Below are positions 12,397 through 34,713 of a DNA stretch of 39,894 nt, in pieces. Location: contig JACCWM010000097.1 of NCBI GenBank assembly GCA_013697635.1, positions 1 to 39,894 of the forward strand, in the 5' to 3' direction. This DNA is from Lujinxingiaceae bacterium (GTDB lineage: Bacteria > Myxococcota_A > Bradymonadia > Bradymonadales > Bradymonadaceae). The notes below the pieces were generated by a model. It did not search any database and was not told where the DNA came from. It saw only the letters and a program-made list of their open reading frames with translations. Numbering within the stretch: position 1 is the stretch's first letter; every line of letters begins with the position of its first letter. A program made the position numbers and the translations under genes.

Positions 12397-15363
12397 TCAG
12401 CGCTTGCGCGTCCAACGAAGCACCGTGTGCAGTCCGCGGTCGTCGCCTTCGCCCTCAAATCCCAGGTGCATCTTGACCGAGCGCATGGACTGCAAGGCCC
12501 GCGTCACCGCGGCCTCGGCCACGGGAACGGGTGCTGCAACGTGGTCGTGACCGGGACCGTAGATGCTGTGGCGGATCAGACCGTGCTCATCGACGCTAAA
12601 CTTGCCGTCATGGATGTCGCCTGGCTCATAGCCCAGGTAGTGCAGCGCGAGGCGGCGGCGCTCAGAATCATCTTGGGGCAAGCCGCCCAGACCGTGCTCC
12701 AAGCTGAGCCAGGCGGCCGAGGCACCAACGTGGCTCTTGACAGCGTTGGTTTCGAGCATGGCGAGCAAGGTCAGCACGATCCAGCTCTGCTCGGCCTTGG
12801 GATCGAGGGTAATCATGGTCTGCATCATGAGCGCATCGGGGTCGGCCGGCTTGGCCGTCGAGAAGCCACCGTCGAGGGCGGCGTCGATCATGGTCTGCAA
12901 GGTCGCCAGATCGAAGCTGGCCAAGAAAACGCCCCCGGCCGCAGTATAGTGCAGCCGCAAATCGCTCAGCGCTTGCTGGCCGAACTCCAGGCCGGCCTGC
13001 TCGGTCGGACCCACCGACGTGATCGGAACCTCTCGATAGGGCTCGGTGTCATGCCAGCGCAAAAAGCCCGGCGCCGATGAGTCGATAAAAGCCCGGGTTG
13101 CCGTCAGCGTCGCAGCGAGCATCAGGGGGTTCTTGATGTGCGCGCCAATATAGATCGGCAGGCGTCCCAATATCTGGAGCAAGAGCTGGTCCGAGCCGGA
13201 GCGCGCCTCGCCCGAGCCTGCGAGACCCTGGCTCATGATCAGATCCCAGACACCGCTGCGATCGGCGGCGCCGACCATGACCCAGTCGCCCAGCCAATCC
13301 AGGCCCAGGTCGTGGCGGCCTGTCATCTGGCGTGCCATCGCGTTGAGCTCTCGGCGAAGGCTGGCATCGTCGCCCACGGCCAGCGTCCATTGCAGCGCAC
13401 CTTCGAGCCTGGGCGCGGTCACCGCGCGTGTACCGACCTGGCGAGCCAGGCCGTCGTATTCGCTGGCATCGATCAGCGGCAGCATGCGTGCGTCGACGCC
13501 GATCTCGCCGCTGTCCTTGTCAAAGTTGATCCGCGCAGCGATCGGATCGATGAAGGTCTGCCAGGTATTCATGTAGCGGCTGCGAAAGAAGTCGTAGGCA
13601 TCTTGCTCCTCGGGGCTGACGCGCTCGATTGAGCGTTCGATGAGCGGCGAGAGCCTGGCAAGGTTGCCCCAGCTCGAGGAGGCGCCCTGGCCGGGGGTGT
13701 AGACAATGGGGGAGCCGTCAGCGTGCACAAGCTCCTCGGCGCGAAGCAGGCCGCTCGCTGTGAGCTCGACGACGTCTCTGGGCAGGCGTCCTTCGAGCCA
13801 GCCAAAGAGCATCGCCGCGTGGTTGACCGCGGCCAGGTCGGCGCGTGCTTCCATGCGCCGCGCCGACAAGATCTTGGTGCGCGGGCCAACCGTGTGGGCT
13901 ACGAAGGCATCGCTGACGAACACGAAGCCGTCCTCGGCCTTGGTGTCGTAGGGGTAGCGCGCGCGCATGTAGCGAAAGTCACCGCTTTTTGAGAGAGGCG
14001 CGCGCGTGCCCTCGTGCACGCCGATGAAGCGCTCGATGGCCCGGGCCGAGCTCGAGAGCACCAGCACCTCGCCAAGCTGCAGGCGGTGCTGCTGGACGGC
14101 GCCGTCTGGCGTCGACAAAAGCCGCACGCTGTGGCCGGCGAGCTCGACGCTCGACGCGACAAGGCCGGGGTGGGCTTTGCGCGTCTCGCGCTCGTAGCGC
14201 TCCAGGGCCTGATTCAAGAGCTTGGCCTCGCGCACGTGAAAGAGGATCGAGACGTCGCTGCCCTCGCGCAAAAACGGGTCGCTCGTGGTGATCGCCACGC
14301 CGTGGGCCGCGAGGTGGCCGAGCTGCTCGGAGAGACCGCTGCGCTGGATGGCGAGCATGGTCTCATAGCGCTCGGCGATGTGGCGACTGCCGCTCTTGAG
14401 CTCGAGCGCCTGAAACAGCGGCGAGATCCACTGGTCGAGCTCGGCCGCCAGGCGCACAAAGGTGCGCAGATCGTGGAAGTGGATGTAGAGCATGTCGTCG
14501 GGCACAAAGGCCGCCAACGGCTCCACGACGGGCTCCTGGCCGAGCTCGGCGATCATCTTGTCCCAGGGATGCTCGGCCAGGGGCACGCCTTCGATCGCGG
14601 AGAGGGCGATGGTCTGCGCGCTGGCCGGCGCGGCGCGCACGAAGAGCGCTCGGTCGATCTGCAGGGCCTCCTCGACCGAGAGGATGCCCGTGTAGGTGGC
14701 CATCAGATCGCCGAGCTCGCCGCGACGAGCCGGTGTGCGGGCCGTGCGTCGATCGAGGCCGCGCTCGAGCTCGAGACGATGGCTGGCGAAGCTGAAGAAG
14801 GCCAGGTCGTCGCCCTCGCCGCGCAGCTGCCTCATCGCCGAGGCGATCCGGTGCTGAAACAAAAGCGGCAGCTCTGCCTGCGCGCTTCCCGTGCCCTGGG
14901 CCACGCTGATCACCACCGGCTGATGCACGTCGACCACATCACCGAAGCGCTCTCCGTCCTCGGTCCAGAAGAGGTCGACCACGACCTCGTCTTGTGGCGC
15001 CTGCTCGCCGACAAAGCGCACAATCAGCTGAGGCTCGCAGTCGGTCACCGCGCGTGCGTGGCGCTCACCACGAACGTCGAGCCATTGGATGACGCAGCGA
15101 CGGCCAAAGCCTTCGGTGATCGTCGTGGCCAAATAGAAGTGGGTTTGGTCGCCAAAGTGCGCATCGGCGGGCACGCGGACCGGTGGGCGGGAGTCGGCGC
15201 TGCGCCGGCCACTGAAGCGCTCAAAGATCGGGCCCGGGTCGGCGGGCCGGGCGGCTCGCTCGACGGGTGCTACGGGATCGGGCTGCGCAACGGGCTTGGA
15301 GCTGCTGCAGGAAGCAGCGAGCAGCACGGTGCTGAGGACGGCAAAGAGACGATGGATACTCAT
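12397..15363 (-). CDS. Large lipoprotein, function unknown
   Basis: 988 residues. MSIHRLFAVLSTVLLAASC is a signal peptide with lipobox, Cys19 being the lipid site, followed by a Ser/Pro/Ala-rich linker. No known catalytic motif is seen. The body alternates strands and helices, with patches such as YIHFHDLRTFVRLAAELDQW and several GEVLVLSSSARAIERFIG-type segments that remind me of DUF3352-like proteins, in which repeated units score substrate or lipid-like barrels; this resemblance is weak. Start 15363 has AGGTG seven bases upstream. It is divergent from the Lys-rich lipoprotein gene. Probably an outer-membrane or periplasm-facing protein. Confidence 0.75.
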   Translation of the reverse strand: MSIHRLFAVLSTVLLAASCSSSKPVAQPDPVAPVERAARPADPGPIFERFSGRRSADSRPPVRVPADAHFGDQTHFYLATTITEGFGRRCVIQWLDVRGERHARAVTDCEPQLIVRFVGEQAPQDEVVVDLFWTEDGERFGDVVDVHQPVVISVAQGTGSAQAELPLLFQHRIASAMRQLRGEGDDLAFFSFASHRLELERGLDRRTARTPARRGELGDLMATYTGILSVEEALQIDRALFVRAAPASAQTIALSAIEGVPLAEHPWDKMIAELGQEPVVEPLAAFVPDDMLYIHFHDLRTFVRLAAELDQWISPLFQALELKSGSRHIAERYETMLAIQRSGLSEQLGHLAAHGVAITTSDPFLREGSDVSILFHVREAKLLNQALERYERETRKAHPGLVASSVELAGHSVRLLSTPDGAVQQHRLQLGEVLVLSSSARAIERFIGVHEGTRAPLSKSGDFRYMRARYPYDTKAEDGFVFVSDAFVAHTVGPRTKILSARRMEARADLAAVNHAAMLFGWLEGRLPRDVVELTASGLLRAEELVHADGSPIVYTPGQGASSSWGNLARLSPLIERSIERVSPEEQDAYDFFRSRYMNTWQTFIDPIAARINFDKDSGEIGVDARMLPLIDASEYDGLARQVGTRAVTAPRLEGALQWTLAVGDDASLRRELNAMARQMTGRHDLGLDWLGDWVMVGAADRSGVWDLIMSQGLAGSGEARSGSDQLLLQILGRLPIYIGAHIKNPLMLAATLTATRAFIDSSAPGFLRWHDTEPYREVPITSVGPTEQAGLEFGQQALSDLRLHYTAAGGVFLASFDLATLQTMIDAALDGGFSTAKPADPDALMMQTMITLDPKAEQSWIVLTLLAMLETNAVKSHVGASAAWLSLEHGLGGLPQDDSERRRLALHYLGYEPGDIHDGKFSVDEHGLIRHSIYGPGHDHVAAPVPVAEAAVTRALQSMRSVKMHLGFEGEGDDRGLHTVLRWTRKR

Positions 15364-15718
15364 CGATCACACCTGTGAAGAGAAATTTCTAGCAACGATT
15401 ACAAGGGGTGGTGTCGCTACATTTATACCTATAATGAGAATAATATTTGCCGAGGTCTTTTGAGTCCTCACAATCTAGTGCAGACGACGCAAACTCCTGA
15501 CTCGGTCGTGAAACTGCGTGCGCCTGAAGTTACCAGCCTGTTCCTCAATTCGTTTCGTAAAGTTTGGGAAGTCCATCTTAGCCCGTGATGTCTACGACGT
15601 CGATTGGTCTGTGAAGGTAAAATGCACTGGTCGATTCAAGCCGCCCATGTGGCCGATTCGAGGCCGACTTTGTGGTGGTTCACCGACGTGAATTCAATCC
15701 ATGGTAAGGACAATTAAA
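15364..15718. promoter_or_regulatory. Divergent AT-rich promoter region
   Basis: 355 bases between two divergent lipoprotein genes, clearly richer in A+T than its surroundings. A perfect TATAAT stands at 15430-15435 on the plus strand and a TATAAA on the minus strand (15422-15427), but neither has a good -35 at normal spacing. No gene or RNA structure is seen. Which gene either box serves is open. Confidence 0.35.
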
Positions 15719-17929
15719 ATGACTCAATTCTTGATACGAAAATCTCGTCCACGCGGCGTGGCTCTTGGGCTGTCGACCGGCTGTGCTCTGCTTTTTGCGA
15801 CGGCCTGTGGTGATATCCTCGATGGTCCGTCTTCGGAAGAGGTGTCGGTGGCACCGGTCACTCCGTACGTGCCGGAGCATAAGAACCCAACCTGCGAGGA
15901 TCTCGGACTGGGCACGCATTCGACGAAGTTCGAGGATCCGAAGAGCGGCACCTACACCCTGCTGGGCGACAAGAAGGTCGTCCTCGATGTCAACAACCCC
16001 TACTTCGATTGGAAGAGCAGCATCGACATCGAGGCCGTGATCGTCAAGGGCGGCCCGACCGCCAACGTCTACGAGTACGATCCGGAGCGTACCTATGACA
16101 AAGGGCTGCATTCGCCGATCAACCCGAACAACGGCAAGCCCTACGGCTTGAGCCACATCACGTTTTGTTACAACCTGCGCCTCGACGTCAAAAAGGACGC
16201 CAAGCCCCACTACAAGCGCACGCACAAGTGGGACATCAAGAAGTCGGTGTACCCGGCTTACTGGGCGTTGTTCGACGGCGACAGCGGCACCTCGAAGTAC
16301 ACCGTCGATGTCACCAAGAAGGGCTATCACGATAGCGATCACAGCGTCAGCGGCAAGATCTACATCCACAACCCCTGGCCGTATGATGCCAAGATCATTG
16401 ACGTCAAAGACATCATCTCGGACTACGGCCAGGTGCCTGTCGACTGCGGCAAGCAAACGTTTCCGATCACGCTCAAGCCCGGCGACAAGCTGGTCTGCCA
16501 CTACGACAGCAAGCTGCCTGACGACAAGGATCGCAAGAACAAGGTCGAGGTCAAGACCGATCCCAAGGGCAAGATCAAGGGCGACTATGCCTATGCCGAC
16601 ATCAAATTCGGCATGCCCACCAAGGAGCTCTACAAGTCGGTCAAGGTCGAGGACACCTTCAACTCCAAGACGACCGTGCTGGGTACCTTCTCCAAGTCCG
16701 AGACGATCAAATACGATCGCACCTTCAAGTGCCCCAAAGACGAGGGCAAGCACAAGAACGTGGCCAAGATCGTCGAGACCGAACAGTACGACACGGCCTA
16801 TGTCGAGGTGAAGTGCTTCAAGCTGATCGTCAAAAAGGACGCCAAGGCCCACTACGACAAGAGGTACGATTGGAAGATCGACAAGAAGGCCGACAAGGAC
16901 CACGTCTCGCTCAAGCCTGGTGAGAAGGTCGCCGTCAAATACGCGGTCAAGGTCGATCTGAGCAAGAAGGACTACGGCAAGGGCTACTACGTCGTCGGTG
17001 AGATCAAGGTCACCAACCCGCACCCGAAGCGCTCGGCGCGCATTCTCAGCGTCAGCGACATCGTCTCGCCGGACATCGCCGCCCACGTCGACTGTGGCGT
17101 GAGCTTTCCCTTCGACCTGGCGCCGCTGAGCACGCTCACCTGCAAGTACAAAGCCGAGCTGCCCGACGACAAGAAGCGCCTCAACAAGGCCAAGGTCGTG
17201 CATCAAAACTACGACTACGACCACAAGGGTGATGGCAAGTACGGCGGCAAGACCTACTACGAGGCCAGCGCCTGGGTCGATTTTGCCTACGCCAGCATCA
17301 AGAAGCTCGACAAGTGCGTCAAGGTCTACGACACGCACAAGGGCTACCTTGGCGAGGTCTGCGCCGACACCCACGAGCTGCCCTACGTGTTCAAGTACAC
17401 GCTCAAGGTCGGCCCCTACTCCGAGTATGAGTGTGGAGCGCACGAGATCGACAACTGCGCCAAGTTCATCACCAAGGACACCAAGACCGAAGGCAAGTCG
17501 TGCTGGAAGCTCAAGGTCGACGTCTATTGCAAGAAGCCGCCGATCGAGGAGCCCGTCGAGAATGACTTCCAAGGCTGCACGCCTGGCTACTGGAAGAATC
17601 ACCTGAGCGCCTGGCAGGGCTTCACGCCATCGCAGACGCTGAACTCGGTGTTCATGGTTCCCGGCGCGCTGGGTCTGGGCGGCAACTCACTGCTCGACGC
17701 GCTCAACTACGGCGGTGGACCCGGTGCCGTCGGCGGCGCGCGAATCCTGCTGCGCGCAGCCGTCGCCTCGCTGCTCAACGCGGCCCACTCGGGCGTCAAC
17801 TATCCGTTGACCACAGCCCAGATCATCAGCCAGGTCAACGCCGCACTGGCCACCGGTAATCGCAGCGCCATGCTCGCCCTGGCGACGCAGCTCGACAACA
17901 TCAACAACCAGTTCCCCTGCCCGCTCTAA
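15719..17929 (+). CDS. Lys-rich surface lipoprotein with two tandem repeats and a CTPGYWKNH tail
   Basis: 736 residues. The signal peptide ends in LLFATAC (lipobox). Two homologous modules follow: one opens LRLDVKKDAKPHYKRTHKWDI and the other FKLIVKKDAKAHYDKRYDWKI; both continue through a glycine-poor strand region, an IHNPWP/VTNPHP turn, VDCG, a C-Y/K step and LPDDK. The layout recalls the extracellular repeat that normally reads RTYDWTI-K, with N-P and VDCG motifs, but those are Thr/Ser-rich whereas this one is strikingly Lys/Asp-rich. A C-terminal module begins GCTPGYWKNHLSAW, known to me only as an unnamed motif of secreted proteins, followed by a hydrophobic Ala/Gly/Leu/Asn tail. Start 15719 is fixed by GGTAAGGA eight bases upstream. 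Conserved cysteines suggest disulfides. Confidence 0.8.
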   Translation: MTQFLIRKSRPRGVALGLSTGCALLFATACGDILDGPSSEEVSVAPVTPYVPEHKNPTCEDLGLGTHSTKFEDPKSGTYTLLGDKKVVLDVNNPYFDWKSSIDIEAVIVKGGPTANVYEYDPERTYDKGLHSPINPNNGKPYGLSHITFCYNLRLDVKKDAKPHYKRTHKWDIKKSVYPAYWALFDGDSGTSKYTVDVTKKGYHDSDHSVSGKIYIHNPWPYDAKIIDVKDIISDYGQVPVDCGKQTFPITLKPGDKLVCHYDSKLPDDKDRKNKVEVKTDPKGKIKGDYAYADIKFGMPTKELYKSVKVEDTFNSKTTVLGTFSKSETIKYDRTFKCPKDEGKHKNVAKIVETEQYDTAYVEVKCFKLIVKKDAKAHYDKRYDWKIDKKADKDHVSLKPGEKVAVKYAVKVDLSKKDYGKGYYVVGEIKVTNPHPKRSARILSVSDIVSPDIAAHVDCGVSFPFDLAPLSTLTCKYKAELPDDKKRLNKAKVVHQNYDYDHKGDGKYGGKTYYEASAWVDFAYASIKKLDKCVKVYDTHKGYLGEVCADTHELPYVFKYTLKVGPYSEYECGAHEIDNCAKFITKDTKTEGKSCWKLKVDVYCKKPPIEEPVENDFQGCTPGYWKNHLSAWQGFTPSQTLNSVFMVPGALGLGGNSLLDALNYGGGPGAVGGARILLRAAVASLLNAAHSGVNYPLTTAQIISQVNAALATGNRSAMLALATQLDNINNQFPCPL

Positions 17930-17983: not shown

Positions 17984-18020
17984 GACCCACAGGACCAGAT
18001 ATGGCCCAGTGGGTCTTTTT
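17984..18020 (+). terminator. Rho-independent terminator
   Basis: GACCCAC (17984-17990) pairs with GTGGGTC (18009-18015), followed directly by TTTTT. It ends transcription of the plus-strand lipoprotein just before the stop of the convergent gene at 18024. Confidence 0.65.
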
Positions 18021-18023
18021 CGT

Positions 18024-18668
18024 CTAATCGACCCGTGCAAGGAAGGCTTCCTCGACCATGCGGACCTCGTCCACACCCGAGATGCGGTGCACATCGATCA
18101 GATCGGCGCAGGCCGCCCCGCGCTGCTCGGTGTGGAGAAAGGCCAGGATGTAGTCCTCGATGCCATCCTCGACCAGGCAGCCGGAGCGAATGCTCACCGA
18201 GGTGAACTCACAGCCATGAAAGGAGCCGGCTTGCTTTGAATAGAGCGTAAAGCAGTTACCAAAGCCTGACACATAGGTCAGCAGGCCCGTGCTGCCACCC
18301 TCGCAGGCGACATAATCGAGCTCGGTGTCGTAGCGCAGGATGCTGTTGGTGGGCATGTAGGTCAAATAGGCCTCGCACGTGGTGCCAAAGCTGCCGGGCC
18401 CGCCCTGATTGTCGTCGTAGATCGTCTGGCCGTCGACCGAGTGGTAGGTACCGGTGATGTCGGGCGGATTCAAGCCGGCATAGACCGGAAAGCCCGCCTC
18501 GATCAGACGCTCGAGCAGGTCGTCGGAGGCGATGCGGCGCGCCTCGACCGGGCGTGGATAGCGATCTTCGGCGTCGAGCGCCGCACCGACGAGCTCGCAG
18601 CCACACCCCAGAAAGGCTATGAGCGTGCAGAACACGCCCACGCGCCGGCTCATCGTTCGATTCATCAT
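18024..18668 (-). CDS. Small Cys-rich lipoprotein, function unknown
   Basis: 214 residues. The N terminus MMNRTMSRRVGVFCTLIAF leads to FLGCGCEL, a lipobox-like end of a signal peptide. The mature part has many cysteines (FGTTCEAYL, YVACEGG, GNCFTLY, FHGCEF, SGCLVED, AACADL), pointing to an oxidised, disulfide-bonded exported protein. PPDITGTYHSVDGQTIYD looks like a small beta-rich domain that lipocalin-like or similar folds could have, but no family is assigned. Start: tandem ATG codons at 18668 and 18665 with GGTGA upstream; the frame back to a TTG at 18746 is less likely. It stands alone on the minus strand. Confidence 0.7.
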   Translation of the reverse strand: MMNRTMSRRVGVFCTLIAFLGCGCELVGAALDAEDRYPRPVEARRIASDDLLERLIEAGFPVYAGLNPPDITGTYHSVDGQTIYDDNQGGPGSFGTTCEAYLTYMPTNSILRYDTELDYVACEGGSTGLLTYVSGFGNCFTLYSKQAGSFHGCEFTSVSIRSGCLVEDGIEDYILAFLHTEQRGAACADLIDVHRISGVDEVRMVEEAFLARVD

Positions 18669-18788
18669 TTCATCACCCAACGCGTCATGCCAGTCATCAT
18701 CCGATCTCAATGGATCGAAGCTAAACGAAGGGCGATCCGTTTTCAACTGAGGTCTCAGCTCGCGTGGTTCTCGAGGCCAAGAAACGAC

Positions 18789-26069: not shown

Positions 26070-27386
26070 ATGAGCAAAATCAACGTAGTGTGCATTGGTG
26101 ACGAGCTGCTCGACGGGCGAACCACGGACCGAAACAGCGTGTTCATCGCGAAGTTGGCGATCGAATACGGCGGCGAAGTCTCCACTGTGCGCTGGGTGCG
26201 CGACGATCTCGAGATGATCGTCGAGGCGCTCGAGGCGGCCGCTCAAGGCGCGGATTTCGTCGTCGTCTCCGGCGGGCTGGGCCCGACCTCCGACGATCTC
26301 ACGCGCGATGCGGCCGCAGCCTGGGCCGCCAGCCGACTCGTGCTCGACGAGGCGCTGCTCACCCAGCTCAAAGCTCGCTTTGCCGAGCGTGGCTACCCCT
26401 TCACCGAGAACAATGCGCGCCAGTGCTATTTTCCAGCCGGGGCGCGAATCCTGGCCACCGAAGTGGGCACGGCGGCAGGCTTTGAGCTCGAGCAGAGCGG
26501 CGCGCGCGCGATGTTCTTTCCCGGCGTACCGAACGAGTTTCAGTGGTTTGCCCACACGTATTTGGTGCCGGCGCTACCGGAGGGCTCGTTGAGCCTTGGC
26601 AAGCGGCGCCTGAAGTTCGCCTTTCACGGCATCGGCGAGAGCCACCTGGAGAACAAACTTGGCGAGATCGTCGCACTGGCCAAAGAGGTCGGCGGCCGCA
26701 TCGGCTACCGGGCGTCGTTTCCGATCATCGAGGTCAGCCTCAGCGCGCCCGACGGCGCCGGTCTGGCCCGCCTTTGCGAGCATGTGCTCGCGCGCATCGG
26801 ACCCTGGCTTGTAGGCGAGGGCGACGAGAGTTTGGCCGAGCGCATCGGGCGCCGCCTGAGCGAGGCCGGCCAGACGGTGACTGCAGCCGAATCGTGCACG
26901 GCCGGCGCCTTGAGCGCCAAGATTACCGAAGTCTCGGGCAGCTCGCGCTGGTTCGAGCGCGGCTACATCACCTACGCCAACCAGTCCAAGATCGATGAGG
27001 TCGGCGTCTCGGCCTCGGCACTCGAGCAGCACGGCGCGGTCAGTCTGGCGACGGTCTGCCAGATGGCGCTCGGCGCTCGCCGGCGCGCCAAAGCGGGCTT
27101 TGCCCTGGCAGTCAGCGGCATCGCCGGACCCAGCGGCGGCAGCGCCGACAAACCGGTGGGCACCGTGCACTTTGCGCTGGCCACAGACGAGGGCGTCTAT
27201 CACCGAAAAGTCGTCTATCCGCAACCTAGTCGCGAGCAGGTGCGCCAAGCTTCCGTTTACACGGCGCTCTCCTTGTTGCTATGGAAGTTGGAGGGCACGC
27301 TCGCCCAGCATCGGGTCGATGGACCCTTTGATGATGCCGACGTCGCCGCCGGGAACTTCCCCACCGAGGCCCTCCAGACACCATGA
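26070..27386 (+). CDS. cinA: CinA-type nicotinamide-nucleotide amidase / competence-damage protein
   Basis: 438 residues. Residues 4-170 are the molybdopterin-binding-like (COG1058) half: NVVCIGDELLDGRTTDRN, VVSGGLGPTSDDLTRD, FFPGVPNEF. Residues about 252-420 are the PncC amidase half: AAESCTAGALS with the catalytic Ser, the YITYANQ segment and SGIAGPSGGS. CinA hydrolyses nicotinamide mononucleotide (with an ADP-ribose pyrophosphatase activity in the first half), recycling NAD. The ribosome site is weak. It overlaps thpR by ATGA, and recA follows after 286 bases, the order known from other bacteria. Confidence 0.93.
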   Translation: MSKINVVCIGDELLDGRTTDRNSVFIAKLAIEYGGEVSTVRWVRDDLEMIVEALEAAAQGADFVVVSGGLGPTSDDLTRDAAAAWAASRLVLDEALLTQLKARFAERGYPFTENNARQCYFPAGARILATEVGTAAGFELEQSGARAMFFPGVPNEFQWFAHTYLVPALPEGSLSLGKRRLKFAFHGIGESHLENKLGEIVALAKEVGGRIGYRASFPIIEVSLSAPDGAGLARLCEHVLARIGPWLVGEGDESLAERIGRRLSEAGQTVTAAESCTAGALSAKITEVSGSSRWFERGYITYANQSKIDEVGVSASALEQHGAVSLATVCQMALGARRRAKAGFALAVSGIAGPSGGSADKPVGTVHFALATDEGVYHRKVVYPQPSREQVRQASVYTALSLLLWKLEGTLAQHRVDGPFDDADVAAGNFPTEALQTP

Positions 27387-27970
27387 AACGACTCTTTCTC
27401 GCTGTAGATCTCTCCATCGCCGTCGTCGAAAAGCTCGCCATCCTACAAGAGGATATCCAACGCCATCTTGGCGCGCGCGGCGACGAAGGCGTCAGTGTGC
27501 GCTGGGTCGATGCGCCCAACATCCACCTCACTTTGAAATTCTTGGGCGAAACCGAAGAGGATCTGCTGCCGATGATCGCCGAGACGATCGCGCGGCTTGG
27601 TAAGCCGCTCTTCCCCTTTGAGGTGGAGTGTCGCGGCTTTGGCTGCTTTCCCGCGCCGAACAAGCCGCGCATCTTGTGGGCCGGCATCGACGCGCGTGGC
27701 GGCGAGGTGCTCGGCTTGCTCCAACAAGCGATCGAGCGCGATCTGGACGAGCTCGGCTTTGCCACCGAGTTTCGCGAGTTCAAGGCGCACGTCACTTTAG
27801 GCCGCGTCAAATCGACCCAGACCATCGATCTGAGCGAGCTCGTCGAACGCTACGCCAACATGAAGTTTGGAAAAAGCTACATCAAGGACTTGATCCTCTA
27901 CGAGTCCAAGCTCGATCACCGCGGGCCTCACTACCATGTGCTTGATCGCTTTGCCCTGGGAACTGTCTGA
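27383..27970 (+). CDS. thpR: RNA 2',3'-cyclic phosphodiesterase (2H family)
   Basis: 195 residues. It opens MKRLFLAVDLS and has the two H-x-T-x motifs of the 2H family: HLTLKFLGE near residue 50 and HVTLGRV near residue 137. The fold opens 2',3'-cyclic phosphates of RNA; older names are LigT or 2'-5' RNA ligase. It ends just before a weak terminator. The ATGA overlap with cinA argues for co-translation. Confidence 0.9.
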   Translation: MKRLFLAVDLSIAVVEKLAILQEDIQRHLGARGDEGVSVRWVDAPNIHLTLKFLGETEEDLLPMIAETIARLGKPLFPFEVECRGFGCFPAPNKPRILWAGIDARGGEVLGLLQQAIERDLDELGFATEFREFKAHVTLGRVKSTQTIDLSELVERYANMKFGKSYIKDLILYESKLDHRGPHYHVLDRFALGTV

Positions 27971-27979
27971 CGCCCGATC

Positions 27980-27997
27980 GCGCTCAAGCGCATTTTT
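27980..27997 (+). terminator. Weak terminator after thpR
   Basis: GCGCT (27980-27984) and AGCGC (27987-27991) form a short stem followed by ATTTTT. The stem is short, so termination may be partial. Confidence 0.4.
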
Positions 27998-28130
27998 CGC
28001 GGCGCTGAAGAATAAATGAAAAAAGTAGGCAACATTTGCCTGCCTGCCTTCGATAACAAAATGAGCCTTTTGACGCCGCTTCCCCGCGGTTTTGTGGGCT
28101 GTTTGATCGCATGACGAAGAACTAAGACAC

Positions 28131-28160
28131 TTGACGTCTGAGTGTGGAAGGCACTATACA
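28131..28160 (+). promoter_or_regulatory. Sigma70-like promoter for recA
   Basis: TTGACG (28131-28136), 18 bases, TATACA (28155-28160), then about 90 bases of leader to the recA ATG. I saw no palindromic site that I could call a LexA box. Confidence 0.6.
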
Positions 28161-28187
28161 GGCTTTCAGGTTGTGATGTACGCCGTC

Positions 28188-28205
28188 CGCCTCCAAAGGG
28201 AGGCG
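28188..28205 (+). other. Hairpin in recA leader
   Basis: CGCCTCC (28188-28194) pairs with GGAGGCG (28199-28205) around AAAG, inside the predicted 5' leader. The 3' arm contains GGAG, so the true ribosome site downstream at 28243 is not masked by it. There is no T-run. Confidence 0.5.
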
Positions 28206-28256
28206 TGGAGAGTTTAATATTGCGTGGGCCCAACAGGGGTCCAAGGAGATTGCGAC

Positions 28257-29306
28257 ATGGCTGCACCAGACAAAAGCAAGGAAAAAGCGCTCGAACTGAC
28301 AGTGGGCGCCATCGAGAAGCAATTTGGAAAGGGCGCGATCATGCGCCTTGGCACCAACGAGGCGATGATCAAGGTCGAAGACCCGATCTCGACGGGTTCC
28401 ATCTCGTTGGACATCGCGATCGGCGTGGGCGGCTTTCCGCGCGGGCGCGTGGTCGAAATCTACGGCCCGGAGTCGTCGGGCAAGACCACACTCACCTTGC
28501 ACGCGCTGGCCAACGCCCAAAAGGCTGGCGGCGTGGCAGCCTTCATCGACGCCGAACACGCCCTGGACATCAAGTACGCCCGCGCGCTGGGCGTCAACGT
28601 CGATGAGCTGCTGGTCAGCCAGCCCGATACCGGCGAGCAGGCCCTCGAGATCGTCGACATGCTGGTGCGCTCCAATGCCATTGACGTGCTCGTGATCGAC
28701 TCGGTCGCCGCGCTCGTTCCACGCGCCGAGATCGAGGGCGAGATGGGCGACAGCCACATGGGTCTGCAGGCGCGTTTGATGAGTCAGGCGCTGCGCAAGC
28801 TCACCGGCACGATCAGCAAGTCGCGCACCTGCGTGATCTTCATCAACCAGATCCGCATGAAGATCGGCGTGATGTTCGGCAACCCGGAGACCACCACGGG
28901 AGGCAACGCGCTGAAGTTCTACTCCTCGCTTCGCATGGACATCCGACGCATCGGCGCGATCAAGGACGGCTCCGATGTCACCGGCAACCGCACGCGCGTC
29001 AAGATCGTCAAGAACAAGTGCGCGCCGCCCTTCAAAGAGGCCGAGTTCGACATCATGTATGGCGAGGGCATCAGCCGCGCCGGCGACGTGCTCGACGTGG
29101 GCTGTGAGCTTGGCATCATCGACAAGGCCGGCTCCTGGTTCAGCTACCGCGAGGAGCGCCTCGGCCAAGGCCGCGAGAATGCCAAGCAATACCTGATCGA
29201 CCATGACAACATCTTGCGTGACGTCGAGAACCAGATCCGCGAGCACTACGGCATGCCGGCCGCCAAGGCCGCCCCGCTCGAGCTGACCTCGACGACCGTG
29301 CAGTAA
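28257..29306 (+). CDS. recA: RecA recombinase
   Basis: 349 residues, normal length. It binds single-stranded DNA and ATP for homologous recombination and triggers LexA self-cleavage. Walker A GPESSGKT (70-77), the DAEHALD block, Walker [16 protein letters not shown], loop L1 GEMGDSHMG, the FINQIR strand and loop L2 [17 protein letters not shown] are all intact. ATG 28257 is fixed by AAGGAG (28243-28248) eight bases upstream; the frame goes back to 28224 but without support. It has its own promoter and follows cinA-thpR. The tail is not unusually acidic. Confidence 0.98.
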
Positions 29307-29316
29307 GGCGCAGCTC

Positions 29317-29340
29317 AAAGGCCTGGGCAAAAAGGCCTTT
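29317..29340 (+). terminator. Hairpin 1 after recA
   Basis: AAAGGCCT (29317-29324) pairs with AGGCCTTT (29333-29340) around eight bases and ends in TTT, ten bases after the stop. It looks like a terminator with a short T-run. Confidence 0.65.
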
Positions 29341-29342
29341 GG

Positions 29343-29387
29343 CCGGGCGGCCAGACGGGCAAATACCCCCTCTGGCCGCCCGGTCTT
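29343..29387 (+). terminator. Hairpin 2 after recA, 13-bp stem
   Basis: CCGGGCGGCCAGA (29343-29355) pairs perfectly with TCTGGCCGCCCGG (29371-29383) around 15 bases, followed by TCTT. It is the strongest stem in the window and stands in tandem with hairpin 1. Confidence 0.65.
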
Positions 29388-29569
29388 AGAACACGCCACC
29401 GGTGGTCGCCCGCACACCCCTTCCCCTCGAAACACCTGCCTGTCCCCCTGCTCGAGCACAATCCTATCTCTGTGAAAGTTGTTGAGTTTGTGGTTGAGCC
29501 GTGCCACAATCCCCAGCGTATCAAGCGCCTTGGAGATTACTGCGACGACTCTTCCCCCAATATCATACG

Positions 29570-30763
29570 ATGTCTGAAACCGATCTGAACAAGATTTTGC
29601 AGGTGGCGGTCAAGGGGGGAGCGAGCGATATCCACCTCAAGGCCGGCCTTCCACCAATTTTTCGCGTTGACGGATCGTTGCTGCCGCTTCGCGACGCCAA
29701 GCGCCTCAGCCCCGAAGATCTGGGCAAGATGGCCGTCGACATCATGTCGAAATACCAACGCGACGAATTCCAAAAACAGCTCGATGTCGACTTGTCCTAT
29801 GGTGTGCCTGGCGTGGGACGCTTTCGCGTCAATTGCTTTCAGCAGCGTGGCTCGATCGGCCTGGTCTTTCGCGTCATCCCCTTCAAGGTCAACTCCGTCG
29901 AAGAGCTGCTGCTGCCCGAGGTCGTCAAGAAACTGTGTGACGAGCGCCGCGGCTTGATCCTCGTCACCGGCGCGACCGGCAGTGGTAAGTCGACGACGAT
30001 GGCTTCGATGATCGACTACGTCAACCAGACGCGCACGGCCCATATCGTCACCATTGAAGACCCGATCGAGTTTTTGATCCGCGACAAGCGCAGCATCATC
30101 AACCAGCGCGAAATCGGCAACGATACGGGCTCCTTCGCCCGTGCGCTCAAAGCCGCCCTGCGCCAGGATCCGGACGTGATCATGCTCGGTGAGATGCGTG
30201 ACATCGAGACCATCGAGATCGCGATGACCGCCGCCGAGACCGGTCATCTGGTGATCTCGACCTTGCATACGGTTGATGCGGCCGAGGCCGTCACGCGCGT
30301 GGTCACCGCCTTTCCTCCGCACATGCGCGATCAGGCCCGCTACCAGTTCAGCAATTTGTTTCGCGGCGTCATCGCCCAACGCCTCGTGCCACGCGCCGAT
30401 GGCAAGGGCCGCGTGCCCGCCGTCGAGGTCATGCTCTCCACGGCGCGCATCCGCGAGCTGATCATGGAGCAGGCCACCGCGCGCATCATCACCGAGCAAA
30501 TGGCCAAGGGGTTCGACAACTACGGCATGCAGAGCTTCGACCAATCGCTGATGTGGCTGCTGCAAAACGGCTACATCACCTACGAAGAAGCGCTGATTCA
30601 GTCGAGCAATCCCGACGACTTTGCGCTGCGTGTCAGCGGCATCGGATCGACGAGCAACGAGAGCGAATGGAAGAACTTCGAGAGCAGCGCCGGTGGGGCC
30701 AACAAGAATAAAAGTGGTGGCAATGATTTCGACCTGGACGACTTTGAAATCGATCGCTTTTGA
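29570..30763 (+). CDS. pilT: Type IV pilus retraction ATPase PilT
   Basis: 397 residues. Hexameric ATPase that depolymerises type IV pili for twitching. Walker A VTGATGSGKST (132-141), Asp box VTIEDPIEF (160-168), Walker B VIMLGEMRD (203-211) and His box ETGHLVISTLHT (223-234) are all seen. The C-terminal STARIRELIMEQ corresponds to the PilT motif AIRNLIRE. A Ser/Asn/Gly and Asp-rich tail ending DDFEIDRF goes beyond the core. PilU is the alternative, but the AIRNLIRE-like site favours PilT. ATG 29570 matches the normal PilT start although no clear ribosome site precedes it; a GTG at 29501 would add 23 residues without homology. Confidence 0.93.
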   Translation: MSETDLNKILQVAVKGGASDIHLKAGLPPIFRVDGSLLPLRDAKRLSPEDLGKMAVDIMSKYQRDEFQKQLDVDLSYGVPGVGRFRVNCFQQRGSIGLVFRVIPFKVNSVEELLLPEVVKKLCDERRGLILVTGATGSGKSTTMASMIDYVNQTRTAHIVTIEDPIEFLIRDKRSIINQREIGNDTGSFARALKAALRQDPDVIMLGEMRDIETIEIAMTAAETGHLVISTLHTVDAAEAVTRVVTAFPPHMRDQARYQFSNLFRGVIAQRLVPRADGKGRVPAVEVMLSTARIRELIMEQATARIITEQMAKGFDNYGMQSFDQSLMWLLQNGYITYEEALIQSSNPDDFALRVSGIGSTSNESEWKNFESSAGGANKNKSGGNDFDLDDFEIDRF

Positions 30764-32352: not shown

Positions 32353-34713
32353 GTGACTGATCCAAATTTCTCCGCCATTCGCGCACGACTTCGCTACGAG
32401 TCTGTCGATGAGTTTATCGACGGCTATTCACGCTATATTACCGCCGGCGGAATGTTCATTCCGATGACCCCGGCCAAGCTCAAGCCCGTGGGCACGACGG
32501 TGCGCTTCCAGTTCATCCTGGGCGACGGCGTCACCGCTCTGCTGGGCGAGGGCGTCGTGCGCCAGATTCGTGGCCTCGAGAACGAGGACGCCAACAGCCC
32601 GATCGGCATGTTGGTCAAGTTCACCAAGCTCAGTCAGGACTCCAAGGTTCTCATCGACCGCATCGTCGCCTGGAAGGCGATCGAGAAGCTCGGCGGCGAC
32701 TTCCTCGAAGAATCGCAGTACGCTGATTTCGCCACTGCTGAGCCCCAAACAACCGAGCAGGAAGCCACCACGGGCACTTACCCGCTGGCCGAGGTTGCCC
32801 GCGCCGCCGCCGGTCTCGAAGCCGCGCGCGAGGCCGCCACCTCCTCGACCTCCAAGACCGGCGAGTTCTCGCTCGACGATGCTCACTCGGACAATACCGC
32901 CGAGCGTGCGCTCGATCTTCAGGCCGTGCAACAAGCCGCCGAGGCCCGTGAGCTGGCGCAAGACGATCACGAAAACGACAGCCCAAGCTTTGGCGGCGTC
33001 GAGCTCGATCTCGATGCCGAGTCCGACGAGACCCTGCACGACGACAACGACATCTTGGCTCGCCTCGAGGCTCGCTCGAGCGCGGACGCCAGCGCGCCTG
33101 ACGCCATCTCCGATGTCTTCGGCCCCGAAGATCCGCAAGAAGAGTACAGTGCCCAGGAGCCGGTCTTCGATCCCTTCGGCTTTGACGACGACGATCTCGA
33201 GGCCGCACCTGCCACACCGCCCGTCGCCGAGCCGGCTGCGGAGCTTGCGAGCGCACCATCGGAGCCGCCGGCCATCGACCTTGGCTTGGACCTCGACGAC
33301 GAAATCTTTGGTCCCGAGGATGACGCCCTGAGCTCCTCGAACGCAAGCCTGGACTCGTTTGAATTCGACGACGATGGTTTGCAGGCCGAGCCCGCAGCCG
33401 AGCCCGAGCCTGAGCCTGAGCCCGCAGCCGAGGAGCTCTCCCTCGACCTTTTTGGTGAGGACGGCGAAGACGAGCCAGCCGTGGCCCAGGCCGCAGCCGA
33501 AGATTTCTCCCTGGACCACGATCTCTTCGGTCTGGGCGACGAGGACGAGGACGAACTGGCCGCCCTTGAGGCGCCCGTCGCCGAAGAAGCCCCGCCGGCC
33601 GAAGCTGAAACGCCCGAGGCCGTCGAGGCCAACGAGGAGCTCGACGAAGCGCTCGACGTTCCACCACCACCCACCGCGGTTGAGCAGCGTGCTCTACGCC
33701 AGACCGAGGGCGGGCTCAAGGTCCACTCCTTTGATGGCAGCGGTGACGAGGACGCTGCGCGCGAATTCGCGCAGTTCGCCCTGGGCGGCGACGACGACGA
33801 CGACGATGTCGACCAGATGTTTGATGACATCTTCGGCGGCGGCGACGATATCTTCGGCGGCAGCGACAACGTCGGCGATGACGGCTTCGATTTGCTCGAA
33901 GACGACGACTCAGAGTTCGCCGCGGAGTCTTTTGCCGAGATCGATGAGCCTCGGGTCTCCGCTGGCCCACCAATGGCCCCACCCAGTGCTCCCCCGCTTC
34001 CAACTGCACCGCCGACCTCGACCAACGACGACGCGCAAGCCGACAACACGCCGGTTGAAGAGGCTGAGGAGGCTGAGGAGGCTGAGGAGGCTGAGGAGGC
34101 TCAAGAAGTACAAGAGGCTCAAGAGGCCGAGGAGTCTCAAGAGGCCGAAGAGGCTCAAGAGGCCGAAGAGGCTCAAGAGGTTGAAGATCAGGACGACCTG
34201 GCCCTTGATTTGTTCGATGGCGAGGACGAAGCCCCCCAGGCACCGGAAGAAGAGTTCGAGGCCGCGCCGATCGAGGAAGATGAGGCTGAAGATGAACTCG
34301 AGGACGAAGAAGATCCGCTCTCGTTTGGCAAGCCGCAAGGCTTTGACGACGCGGAGGACAAGGACGACAGGCCTTCGGAGGTCTTCAGCCTGCTCGACTC
34401 GCTCGAAGCGCCCGATGACAGCGAAGAATCCTTTTCGTTGAACCTCGGTAAAGGCCTCACACCCGAGGCCGAGAAGGTGGCGGCGGTCGAAGAGGAGCCC
34501 GACAGCTTTACGGCGCTGCTCGCCAGCGCTCAGAAAGACATTCAGGCCAAGAAGGTCCAGCCCGACGAAGAGAAGCCGCGCGATATCTTCGACGATTTGC
34601 TTGGTGACGACGACCTGCCGCCTCCAATGGCAGGTGGCGCCCCCTTTGCCATGCCCGATCCCGGCGAGAAGAAGAAAAAGGGCTTCATGTCCAAGATCTT
34701 CGGAAAGGATTGA
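32353..34713 (+). CDS. PilZ-like domain protein with long acidic tail
   Basis: 786 residues from GTG 32353, which has GAGGA seven bases upstream. Residues 8-105 resemble the PilZ-like fold: RLRYESVDEFIDGY, YITAGGMFIP (standard D-x-S-x-x-G is replaced by YITAGG), GTTVRFQFIL and PIGMLVKFTKL. The Arg motif for cyclic-di-GMP is not clean, so nucleotide binding is doubtful, as in the TIGR02266-type myxobacterial proteins. Everything after about 125 is disordered and very acidic, with DDDDDDVDQMFDDIFGG and a Glu/Ala/Gln stretch, and it ends in a basic KKKKGFMSKIFGKD. The tail could be a binding scaffold. Neighbours are pilT and the barrel protein, so a role in pili or motility is reasonable but inferred. 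Confidence 0.75.
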   Translation: MTDPNFSAIRARLRYESVDEFIDGYSRYITAGGMFIPMTPAKLKPVGTTVRFQFILGDGVTALLGEGVVRQIRGLENEDANSPIGMLVKFTKLSQDSKVLIDRIVAWKAIEKLGGDFLEESQYADFATAEPQTTEQEATTGTYPLAEVARAAAGLEAAREAATSSTSKTGEFSLDDAHSDNTAERALDLQAVQQAAEARELAQDDHENDSPSFGGVELDLDAESDETLHDDNDILARLEARSSADASAPDAISDVFGPEDPQEEYSAQEPVFDPFGFDDDDLEAAPATPPVAEPAAELASAPSEPPAIDLGLDLDDEIFGPEDDALSSSNASLDSFEFDDDGLQAEPAAEPEPEPEPAAEELSLDLFGEDGEDEPAVAQAAAEDFSLDHDLFGLGDEDEDELAALEAPVAEEAPPAEAETPEAVEANEELDEALDVPPPPTAVEQRALRQTEGGLKVHSFDGSGDEDAAREFAQFALGGDDDDDDVDQMFDDIFGGGDDIFGGSDNVGDDGFDLLEDDDSEFAAESFAEIDEPRVSAGPPMAPPSAPPLPTAPPTSTNDDAQADNTPVEEAEEAEEAEEAEEAQEVQEAQEAEESQEAEEAQEAEEAQEVEDQDDLALDLFDGEDEAPQAPEEEFEAAPIEEDEAEDELEDEEDPLSFGKPQGFDDAEDKDDRPSEVFSLLDSLEAPDDSEESFSLNLGKGLTPEAEKVAAVEEEPDSFTALLASAQKDIQAKKVQPDEEKPRDIFDDLLGDDDLPPPMAGGAPFAMPDPGEKKKKGFMSKIFGKD
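34057..34189 (+). repeat. Acidic coding microrepeat
   Basis: GAGGCTGAG repeats four or more times and then gives way to GAGGCTCAAGAGGCCGAA units, encoding EEAEEAEE and then QEAEEAQE in the tail of the PilZ-like protein. Length may vary between strains. Confidence 0.8.

Follow-up and report, generated by a model that had tools for sequence, protein, structure and literature searches.

A predicted surface lipoprotein of a Lujinxingiaceae bacterium with two homologous beta-modules exceptionally rich in lysine

The gene and its domain layout

The stretch of DNA analysed here (the window) comprises 39,894 nucleotides, positions 1 to 39,894 of the forward strand of contig JACCWM010000097.1, from a Lujinxingiaceae bacterium (assembly GCA_013697635.1). 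The gene that concerns us occupies a single open frame on the plus strand, 736 residues long, beginning with ATG at 15719 and closing with a stop codon at 17929. The original prediction had placed it at 15719-17929, and the ATG, the AAGGA before it and the stop indicate that this is right; a further in-frame ATG, upstream at 15701, is less likely to be the start. The features of the locus are the following.

15706..15710, plus strand: putative Shine-Dalgarno-like AAGGA, 8 nt 5' of the ATG at 15719, read from the sequence
15719..15808, plus strand: predicted lipoprotein signal peptide with lipobox A-T-A-C and Cys30 (15806-15808), from the translation and a regular-expression lipobox test
15884..16177, plus strand: N-domain, residues 56-153, 2 Cys, C-terminal end SHITFCYNL, described by profile A3 (alignment of 7)
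16178..16816, plus strand: module 1, residues 154-366, Lys 17.4%, 4 Cys, beta-rich
16817..17530, plus strand: module 2, residues 367-604, Lys about 16.8%, 8 Cys, predicted Ig-like beta-sandwich folds
17531..17569, plus strand: short charged linker, residues 605-617, with low pLDDT at model residues 242-249
17570..17926, plus strand: C-domain, residues 618-736, predicted helical, Lys 0.8%, 2 Cys (C620 and C734)
18003..18015, plus strand: terminator-like hairpin with a T run, 3' of the gene

The hairpin is not proof of a terminator, given that 8 terminator-like sites were found across the region where 2.8 are expected. No operon or conserved neighbourhood that would support a role for the gene was seen, and a synteny comparison of the loci of three genomes (G010, G017 and G013) yielded no common neighbours apart from the gene and overlapping frames that are spurious. 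On either side lie frames for lipobox-like proteins (12397-15363 and 18024-18746, both on the minus strand), both without a Pfam match and without sign of an operon. Elsewhere in the window, 26070-30763 holds conserved genes (CinA, a LigT-type 2'-5' RNA ligase, RecA and a T2SSE-type ATPase), and 32353-34713 (plus strand) is a 786-residue frame with 28% Asp and Glu, a pI of 4.1 and no Pfam match at 1e-5. In its own genome the gene appears to stand alone, as searches there for the N-domain, the module and the C-domain turned up no second gene, and the two hits of the module profile both fall in this one.

That the product is a lipoprotein, as had been proposed, is predicted from a basic n-region, a hydrophobic stretch and a lipobox Cys recognised by a regular expression; C22 (S-T-G-C) is a weaker alternative to Cys30. 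The cysteines number two, four, eight and two in the N-domain, module 1, module 2 and the C-domain, respectively, and these even counts fit an oxidising exterior. The protein does not end in CTPGYWKNH, as had been thought. The motif (residues 620-628, 17576-17602) stands at the beginning of a C-domain of 119 residues, which opens with GCTPGYWKNH, and is followed by 108 more. For the same reason the description of a conserved Cys-rich ending holds in one half only: the ending is indeed conserved, with 287 relatives, but it has 2 Cys in 119 residues, and the Cys-rich part of the protein is module 2, with 8.

Three domain families and their predicted folds

By sequence, the whole protein falls into none of the families of Pfam, NCBIfam or PHROG and has no relative in the PDB; three profiles, built from the module, from the N-domain and from the module plus C-domain alignment, likewise returned no meaningful PDB sequence match. 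Weak matches to GvpJ, a PHROG family and TsaB were at the level of chance and were discarded. Taken literally, the lack of any Pfam or NCBIfam match speaks against the view of the modules as an extracellular repeat of a known kind; however, our own profile reveals a real family, and one of its members, L033, a homologue of the window module, has weak matches of the DUF11 type (DUF7927, E 0.0018, and TIGR01451, E 0.0069, both below threshold). The window protein itself has no match to DUF11 or TIGR01451 at E <= 1 in a profile search, so that it is not placed in that family.

The two tandem modules are homologous, as had been proposed. They share 38% identity across 180 columns (composition-adjusted E 2e-16), and their local alignment scores 230, where 500 shuffles average 43 and reach 82 at most. 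The match does not come from lysine alone, since VDCG, L.C.Y, LPDD, NP and W are common to both. The words of the expected shared layout are present too, in variant form (RTHKWDI in one module and KRYDWKI in the other, with NP and VDCG). Profiles A1 and A6 match over the full module of 210 residues, with VDCG...L.C and a C-terminal Cys; the window rows form part of these profiles, and independent support comes from a blastp match to L002 (E 1.7e-77). By blast, 10 of 95 genomes match, namely the genome itself, 7 of 20 from the same family and 2 others with the N-domain only. Profile A1 finds the module in 10 of 188 genomes of the same phylum, our own included, and profile A6, at 1e-6, in 17 of 396 genomes from the phylum to which a Thermoleophilia bacterium belongs (G208, the source of L033) and in 12 of 400 from that of an Aggregatilineales bacterium (G210, the source of L065). 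One locus in the latter phylum, L247, has the intact order of N-domain, module and C-domain, and hence the layout is either old or has moved. The nearest copy of the full layout within the same family (N-domain, one module, C-domain) is L135:8570-10134 on the minus strand in G010; in the deposited sequence it is divided between two overlapping frames, which is either a broken gene or a sequencing error.

From the best loci of these genome searches we collected 44 unique modules of at least 150 residues, two of them from the window, leaving aside shorter ones, those with a domain E above 1e-4 and duplicates; the family therefore has at least 44 modules. Profiles A1 and A6 were built without L010, and A6 also without the third module of L012. 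Judged from these alignments, the window modules are members of an unnamed beta-module family, usually acidic and rich in Ser and Thr, which occurs in three phyla. The view that the extracellular repeat is normally rich in Ser and Thr is supported.

The C-domain is much more widespread. The pattern of the motif matches 397 stretches, of which 287 are relatives by tblastn, and 80 of these 287 were kept. They come from Pseudomonas, Marinobacterium, Chloroflexi, Actinomycetota, Acidobacteria, genera of the Bacteroidota type and others. Profile A2 describes a domain of about 115 residues with C-T-P-G-[YF]-W-K, a second Trp, an R, D..NN and a final C. From 76 matches, 67 non-redundant C-domains were retained and 45 of them entered alignment A4, which has 50 rows with the two window rows and the module plus C-domain rows of L033, L047 and L065 added; W625, K626, W632 and N729 are present in all 48 other C-domain rows. 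The repeats that precede the domain in 10 relatives are DUF7507, DUF11, HYR, SdrD_B or DUF4215. In most relatives the C-domain is terminal, and in several it is internal: more than 70 residues come after it in L074, L062 and L051, and in L107 it is followed by a weak Por_Secre_tail match (23.9 bits against a cut-off of 27). Given these internal cases, it looks like a mobile folded domain and not like a terminal tag. In the collection of papers searched, none contains CTPGYWKNH or any of six related strings. As to where the domain came from, a phage origin was dismissed, as no relative occurs in viral contigs, and so was a plasmid origin, as six plasmid records gave partial matches only, below 60% identity.

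The N-domain has a different set of companions. In G010, of the same family, the minus-strand gene L135:4058-6790 lies about 1.8 kb from the split homologue and encodes a lipobox protein of 911 residues with the same N-domain (E 7.6e-39), followed by five DUF11 repeats (E 5.4e-72). A search of G010 for the C-domain gave three other places and not this gene. In G086, from another family of the phylum, there are eight matches to the N-domain, mostly in short frames (L008, L016, L022, L024, L026 and L028-L030), which by sequence look like a lineage expansion of this domain.

In the predicted structure of module 2 with the C-domain (mean pLDDT 89.7, pTM 0.59) the module is all-beta, Ig-like, with 16 strands of at least 3 residues, and the C-domain is helical. 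The model of the N-domain with module 1 has a mean pLDDT of 56.9; the N-domain stays below 50 nearly throughout, so that its part of the model is of too low quality for any use, and module 1 is mostly at 65-87 outside a weak loop. With VIA-align, module 2 is matched best by RbmA (Z 10.9, rmsd 2.5 over 97 residues), then by CARDB (8.9), by pilins (about 8.4) and by CLIPPER (8.3), a domain of a fibrillar adhesin; for module 1 the matches are Spo0M (10.0), AlkC (9.7) and CARDB (9.6), and RbmA chains lead the Foldseek list. These model-based similarities are generic for Ig/FnIII-like folds (Z 8-11 over about 100 residues, with many unrelated rows close by) and tell us nothing about function.

The lysine excess and the ancestry of the modules

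The modules were said to be rich in Lys and Asp, and they are, with 17.4% and about 16.8% Lys and with 11.7% and 10.1% Asp in modules 1 and 2. The suggested comparison with homologues gives a clear result: the median Lys content of the 42 other modules is 1.5% and none goes above 5.3%, so that only the two window modules among the 44 exceed this value. They are also the only two with a net positive charge (+0.04 per residue, against zero or negative values with a median of -0.083 in the other 42). Within the protein, about 17% Lys in the modules compares with 8.2% in the N-domain and 0.8% in the C-domain. The part upstream of the C-domain was also compared in the 78 rows where it spans 80 residues or more (two of these rows are the window gene); the highest Lys content after that of the window gene is 9.2%. 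The protein also tops its own genome, at 12.2% Lys against a mean of 3.27 (sd 1.95) in a survey of 465 crudely called genes from 861 kb, or 14% of the genome.

As for the term "strongly charged", the charge is indeed dense (the charged fraction of the modules is 0.33-0.35) but near balance: in residues 31-736, 89 Lys and 12 Arg are offset by 62 Asp and 29 Glu, which leaves a net charge of only about +10. The protein is a zwitterionic polyampholyte. Taken together, what the original prediction observed is confirmed, and its interpretation is supported in part, the net charge and the Cys-rich ending being the parts that did not stand.

The Lys codons are those of the host. Over the whole gene 80 of 90 are AAG and 10 AAA, with a GC3 of 0.86, and the AAG:AAA ratio is 32:5 in module 1 and 37:3 in module 2, where GC3 is 0.88-0.90. 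A recent import from a low-GC source and AT drift were therefore both discarded as the origin of the excess. The shift is at the level of protein and concentrated in part of it. Where the window modules have Lys, the nine other modules of an 11-row alignment have mainly Thr in 17-21% (an enrichment of 1.7-2.1 times), Glu in 14-17% and Ser in 9-12%, and Lys is the commonest residue of the other modules at only 2 of 37 and 2 of 40 of these columns. Lys pairs at i,i+2 are no more frequent in the predicted strands than by chance (3 observed, 3.5 expected), which argues against a sheet with one Lys face; Lys does stand beside hydrophobic residues more often than by chance (31 versus 23.2, p 0.015), which fits ordinary strand alternation and nothing further.

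One could suppose that a single Lys-rich module was simply duplicated. This is rejected. A maximum likelihood tree built from the 44 modules pairs module 1 with L011 (94/92) and places module 2 in a group of six rows, the others being L246, L003, L245, L119 and L033 (98/93); forcing the two to be sisters costs 62 log-likelihood units (p-AU 3.5e-7), in a test for which the pair was picked after the tree was seen and under models that assume uniform composition, with both rows flagged as deviant. If anything, like composition should draw the two together and not apart. As the modules are not sisters, the Lys shift hit two module lineages within one gene. In each module 24 of 37 aligned Lys stand at columns where the other module has none, and hence it is composition that has been kept and not particular sites. 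The 13 shared Lys columns are nevertheless more than the 6.5 expected by chance (p 0.003). At the DNA level the modules are 67% identical over the first 25 residues and over residues 101-125, and part of the Lys may have been shared through partial gene conversion. It is simplest to suppose that, once joined, both modules came under a pressure for Lys.

A possible role on the cell surface

How could such a protein work? A lipid at its N-terminus, itself predicted, would anchor it at what we infer to be the outer surface, and the two Cys-containing modules, with their predicted Ig-like beta folds, would form a stiff stalk that carries the conserved helical C-domain at its free end as a tip or cap. 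A dense polyampholyte of Lys, Asp and Tyr would have taken over the module surface, mainly at the expense of Thr, Ser and Glu, and could make salt bridges and cation-pi contacts with anionic partners and between copies of the protein. As partners we would propose the envelope of prey or sister cells, extracellular DNA and exopolysaccharide. We tentatively regard the protein as an adhesive or cohesive surface fibre of low specificity, a reading to which we give somewhat less than an even chance. The small net charge speaks against adhesion. According to one account, Bradymonabacteria prey through cell contact and kill on contact, and adhesion ahead of the attack has been proposed for them by others (PMC11509652).

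Several known systems invite comparison. The DUF11/TIGR01451 repeats (PF01345), DUF7507, DUF7927 and CARDB, the last of which is among the fold matches, are also extracellular tandem beta-sandwiches; unlike the DUF11-type repeats, the window module is about twice as long (213-238 residues), has conserved Cys and is extremely Lys-rich. The fibre and MIDAS adhesins of Bdellovibrio, reportedly surface proteins that this predator uses on prey, are different proteins and are likened here by description only. A 57-residue stretch of Bap1 from Vibrio cholerae, studied for its aromatic and cationic content, is described in one report as a wet adhesive of canonical amino acids, and would thus be a bacterial precedent for wet adhesion by such residues (PMC12407685); unlike the window modules it is short and not a folded module, and the likeness is again one of description, not of sequence.

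RbmA, the biofilm scaffold of the same species, is a secreted matrix protein of tandem FnIII/Ig-like beta-sandwiches, and it leads to another explanation, which we consider unlikely: the window protein would be a scaffold of a matrix or coat and not an adhesin, its copies cross-bridging with extracellular polysaccharide or DNA as RbmA does and holding sister cells. The modules are indeed predicted to be tandem beta-sandwiches, and RbmA chains give the best VIA-align rows for module 2 and come first in the Foldseek list for module 1. However, the likeness to RbmA is one of generic fold, there being no sequence homology to it or sequence similarity to any PDB chain; the second RbmA domain does not superpose along with the first (rmsd above 21 over about 150 residues), and the predicted lipid points to a cell-bound protein. 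We likewise doubt that the Lys excess has no binding role at all and reflects drift or an adaptation of solubility and charge to habitat, for instance to a salt concentration lower than that of acidic relatives. The zero or negative net charge of the 42 other modules against +0.04 in the window would agree with this, as would the possible presence of a solar-saltern species among the relatives (G010, if its assignment is right). Against it, the rest of the genome is unshifted, with the mean of 3.27% Lys over the 465 genes and a median of 2.2% among lipobox-like proteins, and so is the C-domain of the very same protein; moreover, G010, with a similar background (median 1.9% for lipobox-like proteins), has a Lys/Tyr-rich lipoprotein of this kind as well.

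Two further alternatives appear very improbable to us. The lysines could be substrates for covalent cross-links that give a tough fibre, either isopeptide bonds between Lys and Asn or Asp as in Gram-positive pilins, or links to Tyr by way of an oxidase or quinone. Lys is indeed high together with Asp and Tyr, and the beta folds resemble the pilins BcpA and EbpB; but most lysines lie off conserved columns (as seen from the 2 of 37 and 2 of 40 above), and Cys pairs probably stabilise the modules already. Just as hard to accept is that CTPGYWKNH marks a C-terminal signal for sorting or anchoring and not a binding domain. Its terminal position in most relatives and its attachment to many unrelated upstream repeats would suit such a signal, but it is predicted with high model confidence to be part of a folded helical domain of about 115 residues, this domain is internal in L107, L074, L062 and L051, and the predicted N-terminal lipid would already anchor the protein.

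To return to the adhesive or cohesive fibre, the DUF11 protein of G010 (L135:4058-6790) is its closest parallel. The portion L027 of this protein has 14.3% Lys, 8.8% Asp and 8.2% Tyr, so that with N-domain and lipobox it comes near to the window protein in repeat composition, the repeats themselves being DUF11 and not the window module; in eight other DUF11 frames of the family, Lys makes up 0.2-2.2% of the stretches examined. G010 also encodes a further lipoprotein (L017/L200), with the C-domain at its end, repeats rich in Cys and Lys and 7.3% Lys overall; L200:8327-10288 (minus strand) shows a Receptor L domain match and three near-identical CEERCKEKAKQAC...CV repeats with Asp runs between them, besides the CTPGYWKNH domain. 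A connection of the N-domain with high Lys is suggestive only. The majority of N-domain proteins in the family are Lys-poor, so that the role of the family cannot depend on Lys in general, and an unrelated-looking lipobox protein of 157 residues in G010 (L202) has 12.1% Lys without any of these domains, so that high Lys in lipoproteins is not confined to this architecture. A wider proposal is that the N-domain was joined to different beta-repeat scaffolds, the module and DUF11, each of which separately became rich in Lys, Asp and Tyr, giving folded wet-adhesive fibres for prey or kin in a probably predatory family; we consider this quite unlikely.

Whatever the function, three extracellular domains without a matching Pfam or NCBIfam model are described here: the N-domain, the module and the widespread CTPGYWKNH C-domain. 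The gene also offers a natural case of a recharged beta-module surface, in which homologous modules that are not sisters reach 17% Lys while 42 relatives remain at 0-5% and the C-domain is untouched. Pairs of Lys-rich and Lys-poor modules from one family would allow a direct test of what a surface dense in Lys, Asp and Tyr does for adhesion or cohesion. Marine animals have glues rich in Lys and Tyr, and if the wider proposal were true, these lipoproteins would be their bacterial, structured counterpart.
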